DNA of 64,000 nucleotides from Pedobacter frigiditerrae. Lineage in GTDB: Bacteria; Bacteroidota; Bacteroidia; Sphingobacteriales; Sphingobacteriaceae. Below, piece by piece: positions 30,212 to 53,129 of this stretch. How positions within the stretch are numbered: position 1 is the first letter of the stretch; each line of letters begins with the position of its first letter. The DNA is taken from assembly GCF_004331645.1 (NCBI RefSeq), contig NZ_SJSK01000005.1, positions 1-64,000 on the forward strand, given 5' to 3'. Under the pieces are notes generated by a model, which was given only the letters and a program-made list of their open reading frames with translations, was not told the origin of the DNA and ran no database searches. The position numbers and the translations under genes are program-made.

Positions 30212-32767
30212 TTAATACCTGAAACCCAATGACACATATGGGTACCACCCTTCATTGGAATGGCTAGCCATAACCCTTAAAACCGTTAGTGATGCTGGTG
30301 CAAAATAAAATCCACCGCCAAAGCCTTGATGTAATGAATTACTTTTTTCATTTGGCACCCATACCCTGCCAACATCATAAAGCCCCAGTAAGCCAATTTC
30401 ACCTGGAATGATGTAATTAACAAAGTTACCTAACCTAAGGCGTATTTCTAGATTGTTGTAAACAATATGCTTACCTGCAAATCTGTACTGCCTAAAACCC
30501 GAAAGATTTCCTTGGCCTCCCAAAAACTGCGACTGGAAAAAAGCTGGCCTGCCAGCCGTAATTCCACCACCTATTCTTTCGGCAATAGTCAAATTGCCGC
30601 TCGGCCCTATTTTTTGATAAAAAGAAAAATCGATGTTCAGCTGTGCAAAAGACTCAGCATAACGATTTAGTCCCTTATGACCTTGTAATTTCAACTCCAA
30701 CAAAGCTCCAGTTTTTGGCAGGATGGAATTATCTCGGCTATCAAATATCAAGTCAGTAGTCAATCCAGCATAAACCTTGTCCTTTGCAATTGTTAAACTA
30801 TCATTGGAATGGAGTAACTCGCTGTTTGTGATGAATCTTCCCAGGTTATCATCAACATTATAGCGGTAATAGCTTAACGATGGTCCAAATTTTACAGCTA
30901 TCTTATCGTTTTGATAGCTCAAAGAAGGATCAAAATGATAACGATCAAACCTTGTCCGGTAATAGCTTATCCCATCAACTGAATCGTCAAACTTTGTTTG
31001 GTTGCCAAAGCCAAAGAAATTCTGCGTATTGCTTGGCGCATTTGCCTCTGCATCAATCAAAAAGTCGAGATTTCCTAGCAGCTTATTCCACTGCCCTTTG
31101 TAGTTAAACTTAAATGCAGAGGTGGCAAAGGAATGTAAGAAGGAGAATGTTTGGCTATCTCTATAGGGGCTCTTTCTAAAACCTGGATGCTTGATTCGGT
31201 AAGACATGCCAAGCAGCAATCCATCATCAGGGTTATAGCCTGCATTTAAGAAGGTGAACTTCCTTTTGTAGAGATCCTTTGCCACATAGGCAACATTTGC
31301 GCTATCATCAGCTAAACTTTTGGTTAGCTTTCTAATAGCGGCCCCTTTGTAAGTTGCATTAGTTGTTTTACCGTACAGTAATATTGCTCGATGAGACTGC
31401 TCTATTTGATAAAGTTTATTTCCCTCTCCCCCTATAATCCTAATTTTAACGGGAGAGGTCTTATTGTTAATGAGTAAGCTATCATTACCGTTATGGGTGT
31501 AAATCCTAATCTCTTTTGTTAATCCAGGATCAAAGACCTTATCAAATATAATGGCATTTCCTTGCTTTGCTTTTGTGACTTTAACATACAAGGCCTTGTT
31601 CCCAGTATCACTAACTTCTATCTTTTCATCTTTGTTGGTAACCTCTATGTCTATGATTTTATGGTAAAAATGGTAGTATTTGGTCATCATTTCAGGCAAT
31701 GCTTTTCGTCTTCGTTTCAATTGTTCCAGAAATCCATATTGAAGTTGGCTGTTACTGATTGGCAGTTTCATCAACGACCTTTCTAACACTTGATCGGTTA
31801 TCTCCGAACAGAAACCTTCAATTGTTGCATTCCATTCCTGCTCACTCATATTCGCAAAAAACCTGCTATTCAGCTCTCTTCCCTCCCATAAGAACCAATT
31901 AATGTCTTTAATATCTCGTTCATACCCTTGCATCATAGGTAATAACCAAGATGATTGTGCTAATTTTTGTATCAAACCATCCGATCTAAAAAACACCTGA
32001 TCTCTGTCTCTCGGAATAGGAACATAAACTGTTCCTTGCTTTCCTTTAAGTTGCTTCCACCTCCACTGATCTTCGTGCCTATCCCAATCACCAATCAGTA
32101 CATCGAGCGCCTTAGCCTTAAGGTATAAATTGGCATCGAATAAAATATCATTATCGTTGTTTAACTTGACATACATTTTCTCTGTATTGTCCGAGTTACC
32201 CAATGGCTCACGCAATTCCAACAGGCACAAAGAGTTGGCAAAATCACTCGAAAATTCGCCTAAGTTTGGGTCTGCAACAACCCAACCTATCACTGGAGTA
32301 CTATGTGGAACACCAACTGCGGCTGCAAGTTCTGCAACCACCAATGCTGAAAAAGGATGCTGTGACACCATATTGTCCTTAATGATGTCTTTGGCAACGG
32401 TATTTCTGAAGGATGGGGGCAATAGCACTTCTGGATATTTTTCTACACTTCTTAATACCCATTCAGCTCCATTCTTATCTACCAGCCTTAAAGACCTTGA
32501 CTGGTTCCCGCCTCCTTTCTCGGTTGCCATTAACCCTCCGTGAAGCTGCGACATTCTCAGTACGGGCACCTTGGTAGCCATTGCGTATTCCTTACGGTAA
32601 TTTTCTCCAAAGACTTTACGATGAAACTTACTTACGCTGTCATAACTTGGCTTAACCCTAATCCAAAGGCTATCAACAACATTTGCCTGTTGTCCATAAA
32701 TCAAATTTGCCAATAACAGCAGTAAAATTGTACCTATTAAGTTTCGAATTATTTGCATTTTCCCCAT
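30212..32767 (-). CDS. Outer-membrane beta-barrel protein with N-terminal atypical kinase-like domain
   Basis: An 851-aa protein with a signal peptide (IIRNLIGTILLLLLANLIYGQ). The C-terminal ~290 residues are a BamA/TamA-like beta-barrel (GLLLGMSYRIKH ... LTTDLIFDSRDNSILPKTGALLELKLQ ... GFGGGFYFAPASL) ending in Tyr. The N-terminal half is not POTRA. It contains GGGNQSRSLRL (85-95), VLRSVEK (104-110), MYVKL (198-202), a DWDRHEDQW loop (227-235) and PRDRDQVFF (252-260), a layout resembling atypical secreted kinases (Fam20/CotH type: D-R-H..., then D.D). Kinase activity is inference. Upstream: paired palindromes and a near-match sigma-54 promoter. Confidence 0.7.
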   Translation of the reverse strand: MGKMQIIRNLIGTILLLLLANLIYGQQANVVDSLWIRVKPSYDSVSKFHRKVFGENYRKEYAMATKVPVLRMSQLHGGLMATEKGGGNQSRSLRLVDKNGAEWVLRSVEKYPEVLLPPSFRNTVAKDIIKDNMVSQHPFSALVVAELAAAVGVPHSTPVIGWVVADPNLGEFSSDFANSLCLLELREPLGNSDNTEKMYVKLNNDNDILFDANLYLKAKALDVLIGDWDRHEDQWRWKQLKGKQGTVYVPIPRDRDQVFFRSDGLIQKLAQSSWLLPMMQGYERDIKDINWFLWEGRELNSRFFANMSEQEWNATIEGFCSEITDQVLERSLMKLPISNSQLQYGFLEQLKRRRKALPEMMTKYYHFYHKIIDIEVTNKDEKIEVSDTGNKALYVKVTKAKQGNAIIFDKVFDPGLTKEIRIYTHNGNDSLLINNKTSPVKIRIIGGEGNKLYQIEQSHRAILLYGKTTNATYKGAAIRKLTKSLADDSANVAYVAKDLYKRKFTFLNAGYNPDDGLLLGMSYRIKHPGFRKSPYRDSQTFSFLHSFATSAFKFNYKGQWNKLLGNLDFLIDAEANAPSNTQNFFGFGNQTKFDDSVDGISYYRTRFDRYHFDPSLSYQNDKIAVKFGPSLSYYRYNVDDNLGRFITNSELLHSNDSLTIAKDKVYAGLTTDLIFDSRDNSILPKTGALLELKLQGHKGLNRYAESFAQLNIDFSFYQKIGPSGNLTIAERIGGGITAGRPAFFQSQFLGGQGNLSGFRQYRFAGKHIVYNNLEIRLRLGNFVNYIIPGEIGLLGLYDVGRVWVPNEKSNSLHQGFGGGFYFAPASLTVLRVMASHSNEGWYPYVSLGFRY

Positions 32768-40187: not shown

Positions 40188-40404
40188 AAAAAATAAACAA
40201 TCATATCCATACAAAGACAGGGCTCAATTCTTTGCCCATCATACCTAATCGAACCATTGGACATTGCCGCTCAACAATACAAAAACTTGAACGGTTTTAG
40301 TTTCAAAACATTCCCAAAAAAACATTTAAACACCTATATTAGAGGAACATAAACCAATAAAAAAAGCAATATACATTTTATTGATTTCATTAAACGCTCA
40401 TTGC

Positions 40405-42795
40405 ATGAAATTTAAATTATTGATTTTGGCCCTATCCTTATGTGTGGCTACAAAGACTTTCGCACAACAGATTTATCCTATGCTCACACCAATCGAGCTT
40501 AAACATACACGCTTAAAGCTCGCACAGACAAGTTCAAATATCGAACGTACCCAACTATTACTTAAACTCAGCTACCACTACATTATCAAAGGTGGAGAAT
40601 ATAATTCTGATCTGGACAGTGCATCTTTTTTTTTAAATAGAGCGCAAAAACTGAGTAAAAAATTTAATCTCGTAAGGGATCAGATCCACGGCACGATGCT
40701 ATTTGGTCTTTTGAGAAATGAAAAAGGGGAGTATGATAAATTCCGTGAAATTCTATATGAGGTGATATCCGAGGCAGACAGTAGAAAACTGTTTCATGAA
40801 AAAGGCGAAGCACTATACTTTCTTGGTTGTTTCGATCGTACGAATGAGCTCGAACAATACAAAAGAGCATTATCGTGCTTTCAGTCATCAAAAAGCCTAA
40901 AAGAGGAAGCCTACGTGCACTTTAGCATATCAAAACTATATACAAGAACGAGTAATGGAAACAAGGAACTTTCCTTGCAGTCTGCAATCAAGTCACTAGC
41001 ATTATATAAAAAAACAAAAGGCACTGACCTGCAGTATCTATACCATCATATATCAAATGTAAGTGGGTCACTCAATAATTGGCCAGACCGTGTTGGCTAT
41101 CTTTTATTGGCAATAGATGAGGTGAAAAGAACGGGTAATTCAACTCAGATAGGTCGATATTATTCAGATCTTGGCGGCACCTATCAGGGGCTAAAACAAC
41201 ACTCAGATGCGTTAAAATACCTTTTGCTCGCTCAGAATAGATTTGAAGCTCAGGGTGACCAGAATTACATATACTACAATGCCAATATGATTTGTAATGT
41301 CTTTAGTACCTTGAATCAAAAAAATAAGGCTATTGAATTTTACAAAAGTGTAATTAAAAAATTCCCACCTACCACTTCAGAACACTCAATAAGAATTGCG
41401 AGCCACCTTGCAACTTACTACACGCAAATGAAGCGCTTTGACTTGGCGGAGCCGTACGTAAAAGAAATGTTAGGTATGGAGGCAAAGATTGGTCGAAAAA
41501 ACTTTGCCACTATTTTATCCTATTCAGTTGCGGTTAATTTTTACCTCGCCGTAAAGGACCTAGCAAAAGCAGAATTCTACCTTAATGAAGTGTCAAAAAA
41601 TAATGCAACAAACCCTACTTCCTATATAAGTTGGACTTATCTAAATCACTTTAGGCTAGATTCGGCTAGGGGTAATTTTTTAAGTGCAATACAATATTAC
41701 CAAAAATATAAGTTGTTGAATGATAGCGTCCTTAATGAAGGTAAACTTAAACAGATCGCTGAACTACAGATACAATATGAAACGAAAAAGAAGGAAGCAG
41801 ACCTACTAATCAAGGATAAAAACATCTTTGCTCTTAACGAGCGTACCTTATTTTTAGATCAGGAAGCAAAAAACCGACAAACACTATTGGATAAGGCATT
41901 ACTGCAATCACAAAAATCAGATCTTCTTCGAAAAAATAAGGATGCTGAACTAGCAATCAGGTTAAAAAACATCAAATTGTTAAAGCAACAATCCGAACTT
42001 CAAAAAAGCCAATTGAACCAAGCCTATCTCACAAGGACGATAGTTATCTGCTTTTCTGTGTTATTGATTACTTTATTGGCGCTATTATTTAGACAATTTC
42101 GCCTTAAACAGTCAGCGAATCAAATCATAGCACAAAAAAACGACCGACTGCAAAGCTTGGTCACGGAAAAAAACTGGCTCCTGAAAGAAGTGCACCACAG
42201 GGTAAAAAACAACCTACAAACAGTAATTAGCCTTTTAGAATCCCAGGCCTTTTATTTAAAGGATGATGCCTACAAGGCCATGCAAAATTGCCAGCACAGG
42301 ATCTATGTCATGTCTCTTATCCACCAAAAACTCTATCAGTCAGATGAAGTGAAGTCGATACTGATGCCACTTTACATTTCCGAATTTGTAAGTTACCTAT
42401 CCGAAAGCCTCGAAGTAAGGCAGAACATTAGTTTTCAGCAAGACATAGACGAGATTGAACTAAACATTAACCAAGCAGTTCCATTGGCATTGATCATTAA
42501 TGAAGCCGTAACCAATTCAATCAAATATGCATTTCCAAATAGACAATTCGGTATAATCCACTTATCGCTTAAGAGGATTGCAGACCAAATCTTCTTGTGC
42601 ATTAGTGATAATGGAATCGGTATAACAAATTCTAATCTCAATCAAAATACAGATACCTTAGGCCTAAAACTGATGAAGGGACTATGCCAAGACCTGAATG
42701 CGGACATCAAGATCGATAACACCAATGGCACCTCGATCATGATTAATTTTGAGATTATAATTCCTTACCAAATAGAGCTTCTAGATGCCGTTTAA
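40405..42795 (+). CDS. Sensor histidine kinase, TPR-HisKA_2 type (first paralogue)
   Basis: A 796-aa membrane sensor kinase (ATG 40405 gives a signal peptide MKFKLLILALSLCVATKTFAQ; an in-frame TTG at 40381 adds 8 residues). The periplasmic part has TPR-like helical repeats (~40-430). A coiled coil and one membrane segment (TIVICFSVLLITLLALLF) follow. The kinase core has HisKA_2 H-box EVHHRVKNNLQTVISLLESQ with the phosphorylated His, and a HATPase domain with NEAVTNSIKYAFP (N-box), SDNGIG and GLKLMKGL. Phosphotransfer partner is probably the sigma-54 regulator at 45268. 82 bp before the second paralogue. Confidence 0.9.
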   Translation: MKFKLLILALSLCVATKTFAQQIYPMLTPIELKHTRLKLAQTSSNIERTQLLLKLSYHYIIKGGEYNSDLDSASFFLNRAQKLSKKFNLVRDQIHGTMLFGLLRNEKGEYDKFREILYEVISEADSRKLFHEKGEALYFLGCFDRTNELEQYKRALSCFQSSKSLKEEAYVHFSISKLYTRTSNGNKELSLQSAIKSLALYKKTKGTDLQYLYHHISNVSGSLNNWPDRVGYLLLAIDEVKRTGNSTQIGRYYSDLGGTYQGLKQHSDALKYLLLAQNRFEAQGDQNYIYYNANMICNVFSTLNQKNKAIEFYKSVIKKFPPTTSEHSIRIASHLATYYTQMKRFDLAEPYVKEMLGMEAKIGRKNFATILSYSVAVNFYLAVKDLAKAEFYLNEVSKNNATNPTSYISWTYLNHFRLDSARGNFLSAIQYYQKYKLLNDSVLNEGKLKQIAELQIQYETKKKEADLLIKDKNIFALNERTLFLDQEAKNRQTLLDKALLQSQKSDLLRKNKDAELAIRLKNIKLLKQQSELQKSQLNQAYLTRTIVICFSVLLITLLALLFRQFRLKQSANQIIAQKNDRLQSLVTEKNWLLKEVHHRVKNNLQTVISLLESQAFYLKDDAYKAMQNCQHRIYVMSLIHQKLYQSDEVKSILMPLYISEFVSYLSESLEVRQNISFQQDIDEIELNINQAVPLALIINEAVTNSIKYAFPNRQFGIIHLSLKRIADQIFLCISDNGIGITNSNLNQNTDTLGLKLMKGLCQDLNADIKIDNTNGTSIMINFEIIIPYQIELLDAV

Positions 42796-42877
42796 ATAAG
42801 TACGCAAATAAGTTTTTTTGCCTAAATTAGATTTTACATCCACCTTATTAGATATCTATCAATTCATTTTTATTATC

Positions 42878-45271
42878 ATGTTAAAAGCATTAACGCTCTT
42901 ATGGTTGCTGCTAACTATAAATTCATATGGATTTGGTCAAGTAAAGGTTGGCGCAAATGGCAACTACTCTTCGCTGTCAAATCTAAGTGGAGGCAAACCA
43001 GACCTCGCTAGGGTTAAATCATTGTTGAATTTGAGCCAACAATCTATTGATAAACCTGGTGAGGTTAAAGAGGACCTGGACAAGGCGGTTCAATGGGCTA
43101 TCGAGGCCCAAAGCCTAAGCAAGCAAATCAGCTACCAAGCAGGAATCCAGCAATCGCTGTATCTCCTTGGGCTGGCAAACTTAGAAGAGCGAAAAATTAT
43201 CGCTGCGAAAACTATACTTCCTCTATTAAGTGATACCTTAAAAATTAAGTTATTGAATAAACTTTATGCCCATTATCGATATTTTGGATCTCGAGAATCT
43301 AAGGCCAATGATGCCTTGTTAGATACTGCACTTCGTTATGTGAAAGAGTCATTTCAGCTCAGTGTGGCCCTAAAAAGAACCAGCTTTGCTAAAGCTTCAT
43401 TTGATGATTTTTATTGGATCTCTTACTTATATAAAAACAGTGGAAACTACAAAACTGCAAGAGATATACTGCTTTATGCGATTGATAGAGCCAAACTCGT
43501 ACCAGAGTTTTCTCCTACACCTTTATTTATCGACCTTAGCAATACCTACATTGGTCTTTCGGAATATACCATCGCACTCGAGTGTCTGATTAAAGCTGAA
43601 AAAATCATTAAGCCTTATGAGATTAGCGCTTATTTAAAAATCATTTATTCTGGCATTTCACAGGTTTATCGGTTCAATTCCAATTATCAAAAAAGCATGG
43701 ATTATGCCATGATGGCACTCGATGTACCAATGGGCAATAATAAATCTGGCTCTCTATGGATATTTGTAGAAGTAATCACACTTAACTATCTGCAGCTTAA
43801 AAAACCAAAAGAGGCAAAAGCCTTTATCGAAAAAATGCGACCTAAACTTGGTGTAAATAACGACCTTGACTACCTGTTCTATCATAAATGCATGGCCATG
43901 GCATCTTTTGCGTTTAATCAACCTACAGATGCTATTCAACATTACTTATCCGCAATTGAGTATAAAATAAAAACCAAAGAAAATCCAGCTGGCATATATA
44001 CTGACCTTGGTAATGTTTATTCTTCAATCGGAGATTATAAAAATGCTGCCTATTACCTAAATAAGGCACAATCCTTATCCTTCCAATTTTCTAAAAATTC
44101 ACTCGCACAATTACACTATAATTTATACAAGTTGGAATTTGCAAATGGTGATTATAAATCAGCGGTCAACCATTTATTAATCAATAAAAATTTAAACGAT
44201 TCCATTAATAATATCAAAAAGAATAATCAACTGCAACAACTTACAATTCAGTACGAAACGGCGAAGAAAGATGCTCAACTTTTATTAAAAGAAAAGAATA
44301 TCATTAACCTAGGCCAACAAGCCAAATTGTTAGACCAAGCCAATAAATTGCAGCAAAATCAACTGGAAAAAGCAAGTATCGAAACTCAAAGAGCAACATT
44401 GCTTGTTAAACAAAAAGACAATGATTTCCAACTTCAACAAAAAGATATTCGGCTACTTAAACAGAATGTGTTGTTGCAACATAATAATTTGGAAAGATCA
44501 AATTTAATTCGGCAGGCCATTACCTGTATTATTGTTCTCTTGGCTATACTTTTGATCTTGGTTTTTAGGCAAATGAAGTTGAAACAGAAATCCAATCAGG
44601 TCATCGGTCAAAAAAACGAACTTTTAAGCAAACTGCTGATTGAAAAAAATTGGTTATTGAAAGAAGTGCATCACAGGGTAAAGAACAACCTACAAACGGT
44701 AATCAGCCTTCTAGAATCTCAGGCTTTTTATTTAAAGGACGATGCATACACGGCCATGCAGAATTGCCAGCACAGGATCTATGTCATGTCACTCATCCAT
44801 CAAAAGCTTTACCAATCTGAGGAAGTCAAATCTATAGCTATGCCCCTCTATATAGCAGAATTTATCAGCTATCTATCAGAAAGCCTTGAAGTGAGGCAAA
44901 GTATCCACTTCGAACAAAAGATTGACCCAATAGAACTCAATGTTAGTCAAGCAGTTCCACTGGCCCTGATCATTAATGAAGCGGTAACCAATTCTATTAA
45001 ATATGCCTTTCCAAACAGCCCATTTGGGATGATCAGCATTTCCTTGAAGCAGGTTTCGAACAAAATCTATTTAGAGATCTCCGACAATGGAATCGGAATT
45101 CCCATTACAAAATTGAACCAGAACACCGACACACTTGGCCTAAAATTAATGAGGGGACTATCTTGCGATTTAAATGGCATAATCGAAATTAGCAATAGTA
45201 ACGGAACATCAATCAAGGTAAATTTCGAAATAAACGAGCCTTATCAGGTAACGCTATTAAACGCCGTTTAA
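42878..45271 (+). CDS. Sensor histidine kinase, TPR-HisKA_2 type (second paralogue)
   Basis: A 797-aa sensor kinase, tandem paralogue of the gene at 40405. The chosen ATG at 42878 starts a signal peptide (MLKALTLLWLLLTINSYGFGQ); an upstream TTG adds 20 residues. Periplasmic TPR-like repeats, a coiled coil, membrane segment (AITCIIVLLAILLILVF) and HisKA_2 core EVHHRVKNNLQTVISLLESQ. The C-terminal ~200 residues are much more alike between the two copies than the sensor parts. This suggests the same regulator is served by sensors with different inputs. The gene overlaps the convergent response-regulator gene by 4 bp. Confidence 0.9.
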   Translation: MLKALTLLWLLLTINSYGFGQVKVGANGNYSSLSNLSGGKPDLARVKSLLNLSQQSIDKPGEVKEDLDKAVQWAIEAQSLSKQISYQAGIQQSLYLLGLANLEERKIIAAKTILPLLSDTLKIKLLNKLYAHYRYFGSRESKANDALLDTALRYVKESFQLSVALKRTSFAKASFDDFYWISYLYKNSGNYKTARDILLYAIDRAKLVPEFSPTPLFIDLSNTYIGLSEYTIALECLIKAEKIIKPYEISAYLKIIYSGISQVYRFNSNYQKSMDYAMMALDVPMGNNKSGSLWIFVEVITLNYLQLKKPKEAKAFIEKMRPKLGVNNDLDYLFYHKCMAMASFAFNQPTDAIQHYLSAIEYKIKTKENPAGIYTDLGNVYSSIGDYKNAAYYLNKAQSLSFQFSKNSLAQLHYNLYKLEFANGDYKSAVNHLLINKNLNDSINNIKKNNQLQQLTIQYETAKKDAQLLLKEKNIINLGQQAKLLDQANKLQQNQLEKASIETQRATLLVKQKDNDFQLQQKDIRLLKQNVLLQHNNLERSNLIRQAITCIIVLLAILLILVFRQMKLKQKSNQVIGQKNELLSKLLIEKNWLLKEVHHRVKNNLQTVISLLESQAFYLKDDAYTAMQNCQHRIYVMSLIHQKLYQSEEVKSIAMPLYIAEFISYLSESLEVRQSIHFEQKIDPIELNVSQAVPLALIINEAVTNSIKYAFPNSPFGMISISLKQVSNKIYLEISDNGIGIPITKLNQNTDTLGLKLMRGLSCDLNGIIEISNSNGTSIKVNFEINEPYQVTLLNAV

Positions 45272-50684: not shown

Positions 50685-53129
50685 TCAATTCAAATCTTTT
50701 AACTCGACTAAAGTTTCACCTATAAATTCAACGATTAGCGTCGTCCCCTCTGCTGATGTCATGGTCAGTTCAGCTCCAAGATCCCTACTCAGTCCAGTGA
50801 TTAAACTAAGTCCCAGCGAATTTGTATGGGCATTGTCCATCTGTGGAGGCACGCCTTTACCATTATCACTAATTACCAAACATAAACTGTCCATCGGCTG
50901 TTTTTTAAAAGAAACGGTAACCGTGCCCATCTTATCACTATCAAAGGCATGCTTAATGGAATTTGTAATTGCCTCGTTCACGATCAAGCCAATAGAGATG
51001 GCCTGCGAAACATTAAGCTCTACCTGATCAAAATCCGTACAAAAAACAATATAAGGCCTATCAAAACTATCCTTTAACGATCCTACGAGCTCCTGTAAAT
51101 AAATATCCATCCGGATTGCGCTACTATCATTATTCATGTACAGTTTCTGGTGTATCAAGGCCATCGCCTGTATCCTATTCTGACTATTCTGAACGGCCGA
51201 CAAGGCATCGTCTCGAAGGTAAGCAGCCTGAGATTCAAGTAAGCTCATGACCGTATGTAAATTATTTTTTACCCGATGATGGATCTCATTTACCAACATT
51301 TCCTTCTCTTTCACTAAGCGTTCCAAATTCTGGTTCTTTTTATTGATAACCTCATTGGTTTGTTGTTTAATCCGATACCTATTATAGAACAGACCTCCTG
51401 TTAATAACAACATACAAAAGCCCGCTAAGGTCATGTTCCTGGTCGATCTGGATTGTTCCAGTTCATTATCCTTCAACCTGTTTTCACTCCGCAACAGCCT
51501 GTTATCCTTCTCTCTGTTCGCAGACTGGGCCTCTTGTAGGGTAAACCTTGACCGCATGAGCTGCAACACACGCTCACGGTCCATGGCTTCATATTCCTTT
51601 AATTTGTACCTATTGGCCAATAGCTGCAGTCGTTGTGCCCTATTTGCAGATTCGGCCATTTGCAGGTTCAGCTTCCCAGCAAGTATCAAATTGTCTTTTT
51701 CTTTTTTGGCAGTTTCATATTGTATCGCATATTCCCCTATGCTCATCCTTGTCCTATAGTCGGCCAATGAATCACGATACCGATAAAAATCCCGCATCTT
51801 TGATAATGCAGAAAGGTAGTTACCCTTTGCAGAATCTATGTAATACAACATCCTGTTTGCTTCCTTTTGGTTGCGAAAGGTAAGTTTGCCTCTTCCTGTA
51901 TCAACTGCTTTTTTTACATAATACGCTGCCCTTTCATAATTCTTAGCTCTTATATTAGCTTCGCTAAGTTCTATATAGGTATTAACAATATTGGTAATAC
52001 TCTTGTCATCATAAAACTTAGCTGCAGTGGCAAAATACTGCTCTGCCTTGGCTGGCGATTCTAGTGTTGCATATAAAGAAGCAACTCCTCGGTAATAAAT
52101 ATATTTATCATAGTTATTGTAGTATGGAGAATTGATCTTGAACTTAACCAAGAGATGTAACGGCTCCATATTTCCTCGATTTGCCCAGAGTGAAGAAACA
52201 ACATAATATTTCAAGAAATCGGTCTCCATTGGACGATTAAATTTTTCGCATGAATGGATATAAGCTTTATAGTTTTGATCAGAATGCTTCCAATTATTTT
52301 CAGAATAATAGATTCTACCCAATAGTTTATGAATAAGCCCTATCGCAATCCCGTCACCAGACTCATCGGCTTTTGTCCTAGCCTTTATTACATTCGCCAT
52401 TGCTCTGGTATAATCGTCAGCTTCAATATCTATTTTGGCCAATAGATAATAAGGTTCATATCCGTTTTCATACTTCCTTAAACCTTGTAATGCAATTAAC
52501 TTATTGGCCTCGCTTTTCGCAAGTTCCAATCTATCTTTTGAAAGATAATAATAGCCAAGCTGCAAGCCAATTTTACACTGTAGCCCTACATTTTTATCAA
52601 GTATGGCCAGTTTTTCGCTTTTCTCAAGTGCTATTAAGTATTTATTCTCATATACTGGCTTGAGCAATATAGTTTCTGAAAAATAGTTAAAGGAAAAATA
52701 GCTGGTTCTTAACATGCTAACGGCAAAGGCATACCAAGCATTTGCCTCTGCACCCTTTTTTTCCGAGGTTGCAAATCTCCCTATGATCTTTTTAAACAGT
52801 TCCTCCCCTTTTTTCAAATCGCCCCTTTTAATTTCCAATTTAGCCAATAGCAAATCGGAACGATCCTCCAGCTCCCTGTTTTTCAACTGTTTACTTAGCT
52901 GCAACGCCAGCTGAAGGTAATTTGCCGCAGTGTCCAGTTTCTTAATCGTTGATGAAGGTTTATGAATATAATAATCGCCAATTTGAAGCATCGTGACAAC
53001 TTTATCCCTGTTTGTCTTATCTACCTTAAGCTGGTTAAATAATTGATCAGGTGGCTTAGTGAGATCTTGCGCAAAATTTATTTTCGCAAACAACAAAAGG
53101 ATAATCAAGAGGTAAGTTTTGCCAAGCAT
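50685..53129 (-). CDS. Sensor histidine kinase, TPR-HisKA_2 type (third paralogue)
   Basis: An 814-aa sensor kinase with signal peptide (MLGKTYLLIILLLFAKINFAQ), periplasmic TPR-like repeats, a long coiled coil and one membrane segment (NMTLAGFCMLLLTGGLFY). HisKA_2 core EIHHRVKNNLHTVMSLLESQ, HATPase N-box NEAITNSIKHAF, SDNGKG. It is more divergent than the tandem pair at 40-45 kb. Separate leftward gene with its own near-perfect sigma-54 promoter and paired palindromes, so it is likely under the local sigma-54 regulator and may form a feedback loop. Confidence 0.9.
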   Translation of the reverse strand: MLGKTYLLIILLLFAKINFAQDLTKPPDQLFNQLKVDKTNRDKVVTMLQIGDYYIHKPSSTIKKLDTAANYLQLALQLSKQLKNRELEDRSDLLLAKLEIKRGDLKKGEELFKKIIGRFATSEKKGAEANAWYAFAVSMLRTSYFSFNYFSETILLKPVYENKYLIALEKSEKLAILDKNVGLQCKIGLQLGYYYLSKDRLELAKSEANKLIALQGLRKYENGYEPYYLLAKIDIEADDYTRAMANVIKARTKADESGDGIAIGLIHKLLGRIYYSENNWKHSDQNYKAYIHSCEKFNRPMETDFLKYYVVSSLWANRGNMEPLHLLVKFKINSPYYNNYDKYIYYRGVASLYATLESPAKAEQYFATAAKFYDDKSITNIVNTYIELSEANIRAKNYERAAYYVKKAVDTGRGKLTFRNQKEANRMLYYIDSAKGNYLSALSKMRDFYRYRDSLADYRTRMSIGEYAIQYETAKKEKDNLILAGKLNLQMAESANRAQRLQLLANRYKLKEYEAMDRERVLQLMRSRFTLQEAQSANREKDNRLLRSENRLKDNELEQSRSTRNMTLAGFCMLLLTGGLFYNRYRIKQQTNEVINKKNQNLERLVKEKEMLVNEIHHRVKNNLHTVMSLLESQAAYLRDDALSAVQNSQNRIQAMALIHQKLYMNNDSSAIRMDIYLQELVGSLKDSFDRPYIVFCTDFDQVELNVSQAISIGLIVNEAITNSIKHAFDSDKMGTVTVSFKKQPMDSLCLVISDNGKGVPPQMDNAHTNSLGLSLITGLSRDLGAELTMTSAEGTTLIVEFIGETLVELKDLN

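Follow-up and report, generated by a model that had tools for sequence, protein, structure and literature searches.

A protein of Pedobacter frigiditerrae joins a predicted kinase-fold domain, in which nearly all of the catalytic residues are kept, to a BamA-like outer-membrane barrel. Its sister proteins add a phosphatase and sit beside a polyphosphate-making enzyme, so it may belong to an unrecognised phosphate-transfer system in the bacterial envelope. The gene lies in the window, a stretch of 64,000 nucleotides (positions 1 to 64,000 of contig NZ_SJSK01000005.1, assembly GCF_004331645.1), at positions 30212-32767 on the minus strand. The original prediction, that an N-terminal region resembling Fam20/CotH-type secreted kinases is paired with a barrel lacking POTRA repeats, is supported by the predicted fold, although the fold alone does not show kinase activity. 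The family is widespread in the Bacteroidota, and no library searched here has a model for its kinase-fold domain.

Domain organisation

The open reading frame begins with ATG and encodes 851 amino acids. It opens with a signal-peptide-like segment (residues 1-26; 32690..32767, minus strand), recognised by inspection from the hydrophobic run MQIIRNLIGTILLLLLANLIYGQ. Two short helices (residues 47-62) precede the kinase-fold domain, which covers residues about 65-370 (31658..32575, minus strand). This is followed by an all-beta domain of about 11 strands (residues 371-485; 31313..31657, minus strand), which stands in the place of POTRAs but shows no beta-alpha-alpha-beta-beta pattern, and finally by a 16-stranded Omp85 barrel (residues 502-849; 30221..31264, minus strand). 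Pfam sees only the barrel, with PF01103 matching residues 606-811 at 29.1 bits against a cut-off of 24, whilst NCBIfam gives a sub-threshold Omp85 match. A full-length model (pLDDT 86.8) contains 16 long barrel strands, and its best solved matches are BamA (Foldseek 2e-11), Sam50 and TamA. POTRA domains are not universal within the Omp85 superfamily, which includes 'noNterm' members; the survey of this superfamily mentions neither kinase nor phosphatase (PMC4104836).

The predicted kinase-fold domain

An alignment of 58 relatives was used to generate an AlphaFold2 model of residues 27-500, which has a mean pLDDT of 90.5 and a pTM of 0.90. Foldseek ranks the H. pylori kinase CtkA first (E 6e-7). 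VIA-align gives phosphatidylinositol 4-kinase type II (PI4KII) at Z 15.0-15.3, CotH (B. cereus, 5jda/5jd9) at 13.9 with an rmsd of 4.0 over 240 residues, CtkA at 13.1, HipA at 10.9 and Fam20C (4kqb) at 10.4, mostly over model residues about 40-343, that is, residues about 66-369 of the protein.

The order of elements in the model fits a kinase. A glycine-rich turn, GGGNQS (residues 85-90; 32498..32515, minus strand), lies between two N-lobe strands and is followed by a strand containing the start of VLRSVEK (104-110; 32438..32458, minus strand). Next come an alphaC-like helix with Asp131 (32375..32377, minus strand), a possible ion-pair or metal residue, a hinge strand with Glu184 and a helix with Asp222. 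The catalytic-loop motif DWDRHEDQW (227-235; 32063..32089, minus strand) contains Asp229 and is followed by two strands and PRDRD (252-256; 32000..32014, minus strand), the DFG-equivalent metal-binding motif, which forms part of PRDRDQVFF (252-260). The aspartates placed at 253-255 in the original prediction are D254 and D256. Moreover, the residue in the VAIK-like strand, where kinases usually carry Lys, is Arg106, with Lys110 following four residues later.

These motifs are not there by chance. In 137 sequences K110 is kept in 132, R106 in 128, D131 in 132, E184 in 133, D222 in 136, D227 in 135, D229 in 130, D254 in 130 and D256 in 128, whilst the three glycines are kept in 127-130 and the PRDRD motif in 128-132. 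About ten relatives are degenerate, mainly one lineage (f17) and some long branches; members of f17 at four loci (L173, L176, L178 and L179) keep the domain and barrel but have lost D254 and D256, and are candidate pseudokinases.

Independent profile evidence points to CotH/Fam20. A family profile of the 137 sequences, aligned by hhalign with a CotH (PF08757) profile from this phylum, gives E 5.5e-6 and a probability of 86%, with GDWDRH falling on GSWD and IPRDRD on IPYDYD about 25 residues further on. In the same set-up, CotH against HipA, two accepted kinase-fold families, gives 0.0028, and the family against HipA gives 0.014. Phosphatase-domain and barrel profiles give 0.13 and 0.52, the best of 30 column-shuffled CotH profiles gives 0.048 and the reversed profile gives 0.45. 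The match covers mainly the C-lobe and does not align GGGNQS and VLRSVEK with CotH; the N-lobe rests on the model. Of 55 divergent relatives, one reaches Fam20C at 7e-4 and one reaches CotH at 0.024.

Sequence-only searches of the domain against Pfam, NCBIfam and PDB gave no kinase, and hits to EzrA, DUF3244 and a telomerase protein are weak and scattered. The window protein has no PF08757 hit at E up to 10, and the only PF08757 hit of its genome is a chance match in an MqnE-like protein. The best relative scores 20.4 bits against Fam20C (PF06702), below the cut-off of 26.8. The genome has no match to HipA (PF07804) or to PF00454, and PI3/PI4-kinase and Fam20C searches of the phylum gave only sub-threshold hits. 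PADLOC gave no hit for the window protein and weak PDC-M03A hits for two relatives. Fam20C shares the DRH catalytic motif and is exported, but has no barrel and clusters as Metazoa- or eukaryote-specific (PMC9758233). PI4KII, the closest fold by Z, is eukaryotic and cytosolic-facing, and no sequence match to it was found. No description of the present family was found in the open-licence literature searched, although an earlier description elsewhere is not excluded; a Flavobacterium BAM paper does not mention kinase or phosphatase, and a metallophosphoesterase of R. anatipestifer (AEM 2021) is listed as a T9SS effector.

Distribution and genomic context

A relative is present in 110 of 296 sampled genomes of the phylum. 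Of the 137 sequences, 64 are kinase-barrel proteins without phosphatase, 62 are phosphatase-kinase-barrel proteins and 11 lack a barrel. Several of the last group have, by inspection, membrane-anchor or lipoprotein-like N-termini, suggesting that the domain is modular and exported. One family (f9) has clusters of two to three barrel-less kinase-fold genes close together (locus L183:1-7576 and locus L184:1-4842), several with lipoprotein-like N-termini. The N-terminal phosphatase is calcineurin-like (PF00149), with its motifs kept in 45-46 of 46 copies. On a quick tree, the root of which was not inferred so that gain and loss of the phosphatase cannot be told apart, the window protein is nested among Pedobacter sequences, most of which have the phosphatase, whereas several deep lineages lack it.

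The genome encodes a paralogue (56% identical) that carries the phosphatase, which could not be seen when the original prediction was made. It lies in a conserved row of five same-strand genes (locus L217:934-11141, contig C8 of the same genome), which encode HD-PycTM, PPK1, an SdiA-regulated-like propeller, the phosphatase-kinase-barrel protein and an 804-aa unknown protein. The PPK1 is the second copy in the genome and scores 661 bits against TIGR03705 (cut-off 466). The row is kept in nearly all phosphatase-type loci of the Pedobacter-Chitinophaga set and in about a third of the others, and Pfam confirms PycTM and all PPK1 domains. The last gene of the row recurs in distant loci, yet an 800-aa example (L051:8482-10881) matches no Pfam family and its counterpart in the present genome no NCBIfam family.

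In 40 genomes from across the phylum, a PPK1 lies within 10 kb of a family member in 12, with 0.39 expected by random placement. HD-PycTM is essentially single-copy and lies within 10 kb in 18 of 21 genomes. In the larger sample, 93 of 110 genomes with the family have a strong PycTM match against 6 of 186 without it (odds ratio 164), and in 76 of the 93 it lies within 10 kb, at a median of 2.6 kb. Linked genomes share ancestry, so that P-values for these associations are nominal. Although PycTM is known as an anti-phage Pycsar effector domain, here it looks like a housekeeping part. In the same sample, six genomes have a CotH gene within 6 kb of a VTC-type polyphosphate polymerase. Extracytoplasmic CotH-like kinase folds thus lie near polyphosphate synthesis in two forms, although this is association only.

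The window copy lacks the phosphatase. It lies outside the row, and hence its link to polyphosphate is by paralogy only. Its own neighbours (a cNMP-binding regulator, an MBL-fold protein, two alpha/beta hydrolases and a glyoxalase) recur beside relatives in at most two loci each, so its context is uninformative. Elsewhere in the window, three genes of about 800 codons (40381-45271 and 50685-53129) cluster together in the neighbour comparison and have relatives beside family members in four other loci.

Proposed role and alternatives

The protein is best explained, with a probability of roughly 0.6, as an exported outer-membrane protein in which an Omp85 barrel carries an atypical kinase-fold domain of the CotH/Fam20/PI4KII kind. 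Export is inferred, as is the placing of the domain in the periplasm, the side where Omp85 N-termini lie. With nearly all catalytic residues kept, it most likely transfers phosphate, or a nucleotidyl group, to an envelope target near the outer membrane (lipid, LPS/glycan or protein), while the phosphatase domain of its paralogues removes phosphate from the same class of target. This phosphotransfer is inferred from the conserved site, and a shared fold is not a function, since SidJ, SelO and pseudokinases share it. Through its sister the protein is tied to a second PPK1 and a membrane HD-PycTM protein, so the donor or target may be polyphosphate or a nucleotide, although both substrate and donor are speculative.

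Regulated phosphorylation would then take place in a compartment that is not known to hold ATP; for CotH in the spore coat the source of ATP is also called an unanswered question (PMC7821199). A more far-reaching hypothesis, which is doubtful at present, is that the family is the outer-membrane end of an envelope system in which an inner-membrane HD-PycTM protein and a dedicated PPK1 supply polyphosphate or a nucleotide derivative. The barrel-tethered kinase and phosphatase domains would add and remove phosphate on outer-membrane targets, with polyphosphate in place of ATP as the donor outside the cytoplasm.

A narrower form of the main explanation, tentative but the strongest of the alternatives, is that the protein is a lipid or glycan kinase, acting on lipid A, LPS core or a lipid head group beside the barrel, rather than a protein kinase. 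The best structural match, PI4KII, is a membrane-bound lipid kinase, Fam20B phosphorylates xylose (PMC5865150), and members of the FAM20/CotH group in Legionella are suggested to act on phosphoinositides or other lipids (PMC9758233). However, CotH acts on proteins, its Z is not far below, and fold rank does not fix the substrate.

It is also possible, though less likely, that the kinase fold does not mediate phosphotransfer, and that the domain binds a nucleotide or another ligand as a sensor or scaffold, or does other chemistry such as AMPylation or polyglutamylation, with the barrel acting as a regulated channel or assembly factor. Arg106 in place of Lys, the lack of known periplasmic ATP and the relatives that have lost D229, D254 or D256 yet keep domain and barrel favour this view. 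In contrast, D229, D254, D256 and K110 are kept in over 90% of the 137 sequences over a very broad phylogenetic range, more than a mere scaffold needs.

A self-translocating surface enzyme of type Vd is unlikely. PlpD-like proteins appear to fuse an enzyme to an Omp85 barrel, and ATP can be present outside the cell, but PlpD has a POTRA before the barrel whereas this protein has none, and some relatives keep only the domain with an N-terminal membrane segment or lipoprotein-like signal. An ordinary BamA/TamA-like insertase with a degenerate, unimportant N-terminus accounts for the PF01103 and barrel matches but is strongly disfavoured, as the N-terminal domain is as conserved as the barrel, has a confident predicted kinase fold and exists without the barrel.
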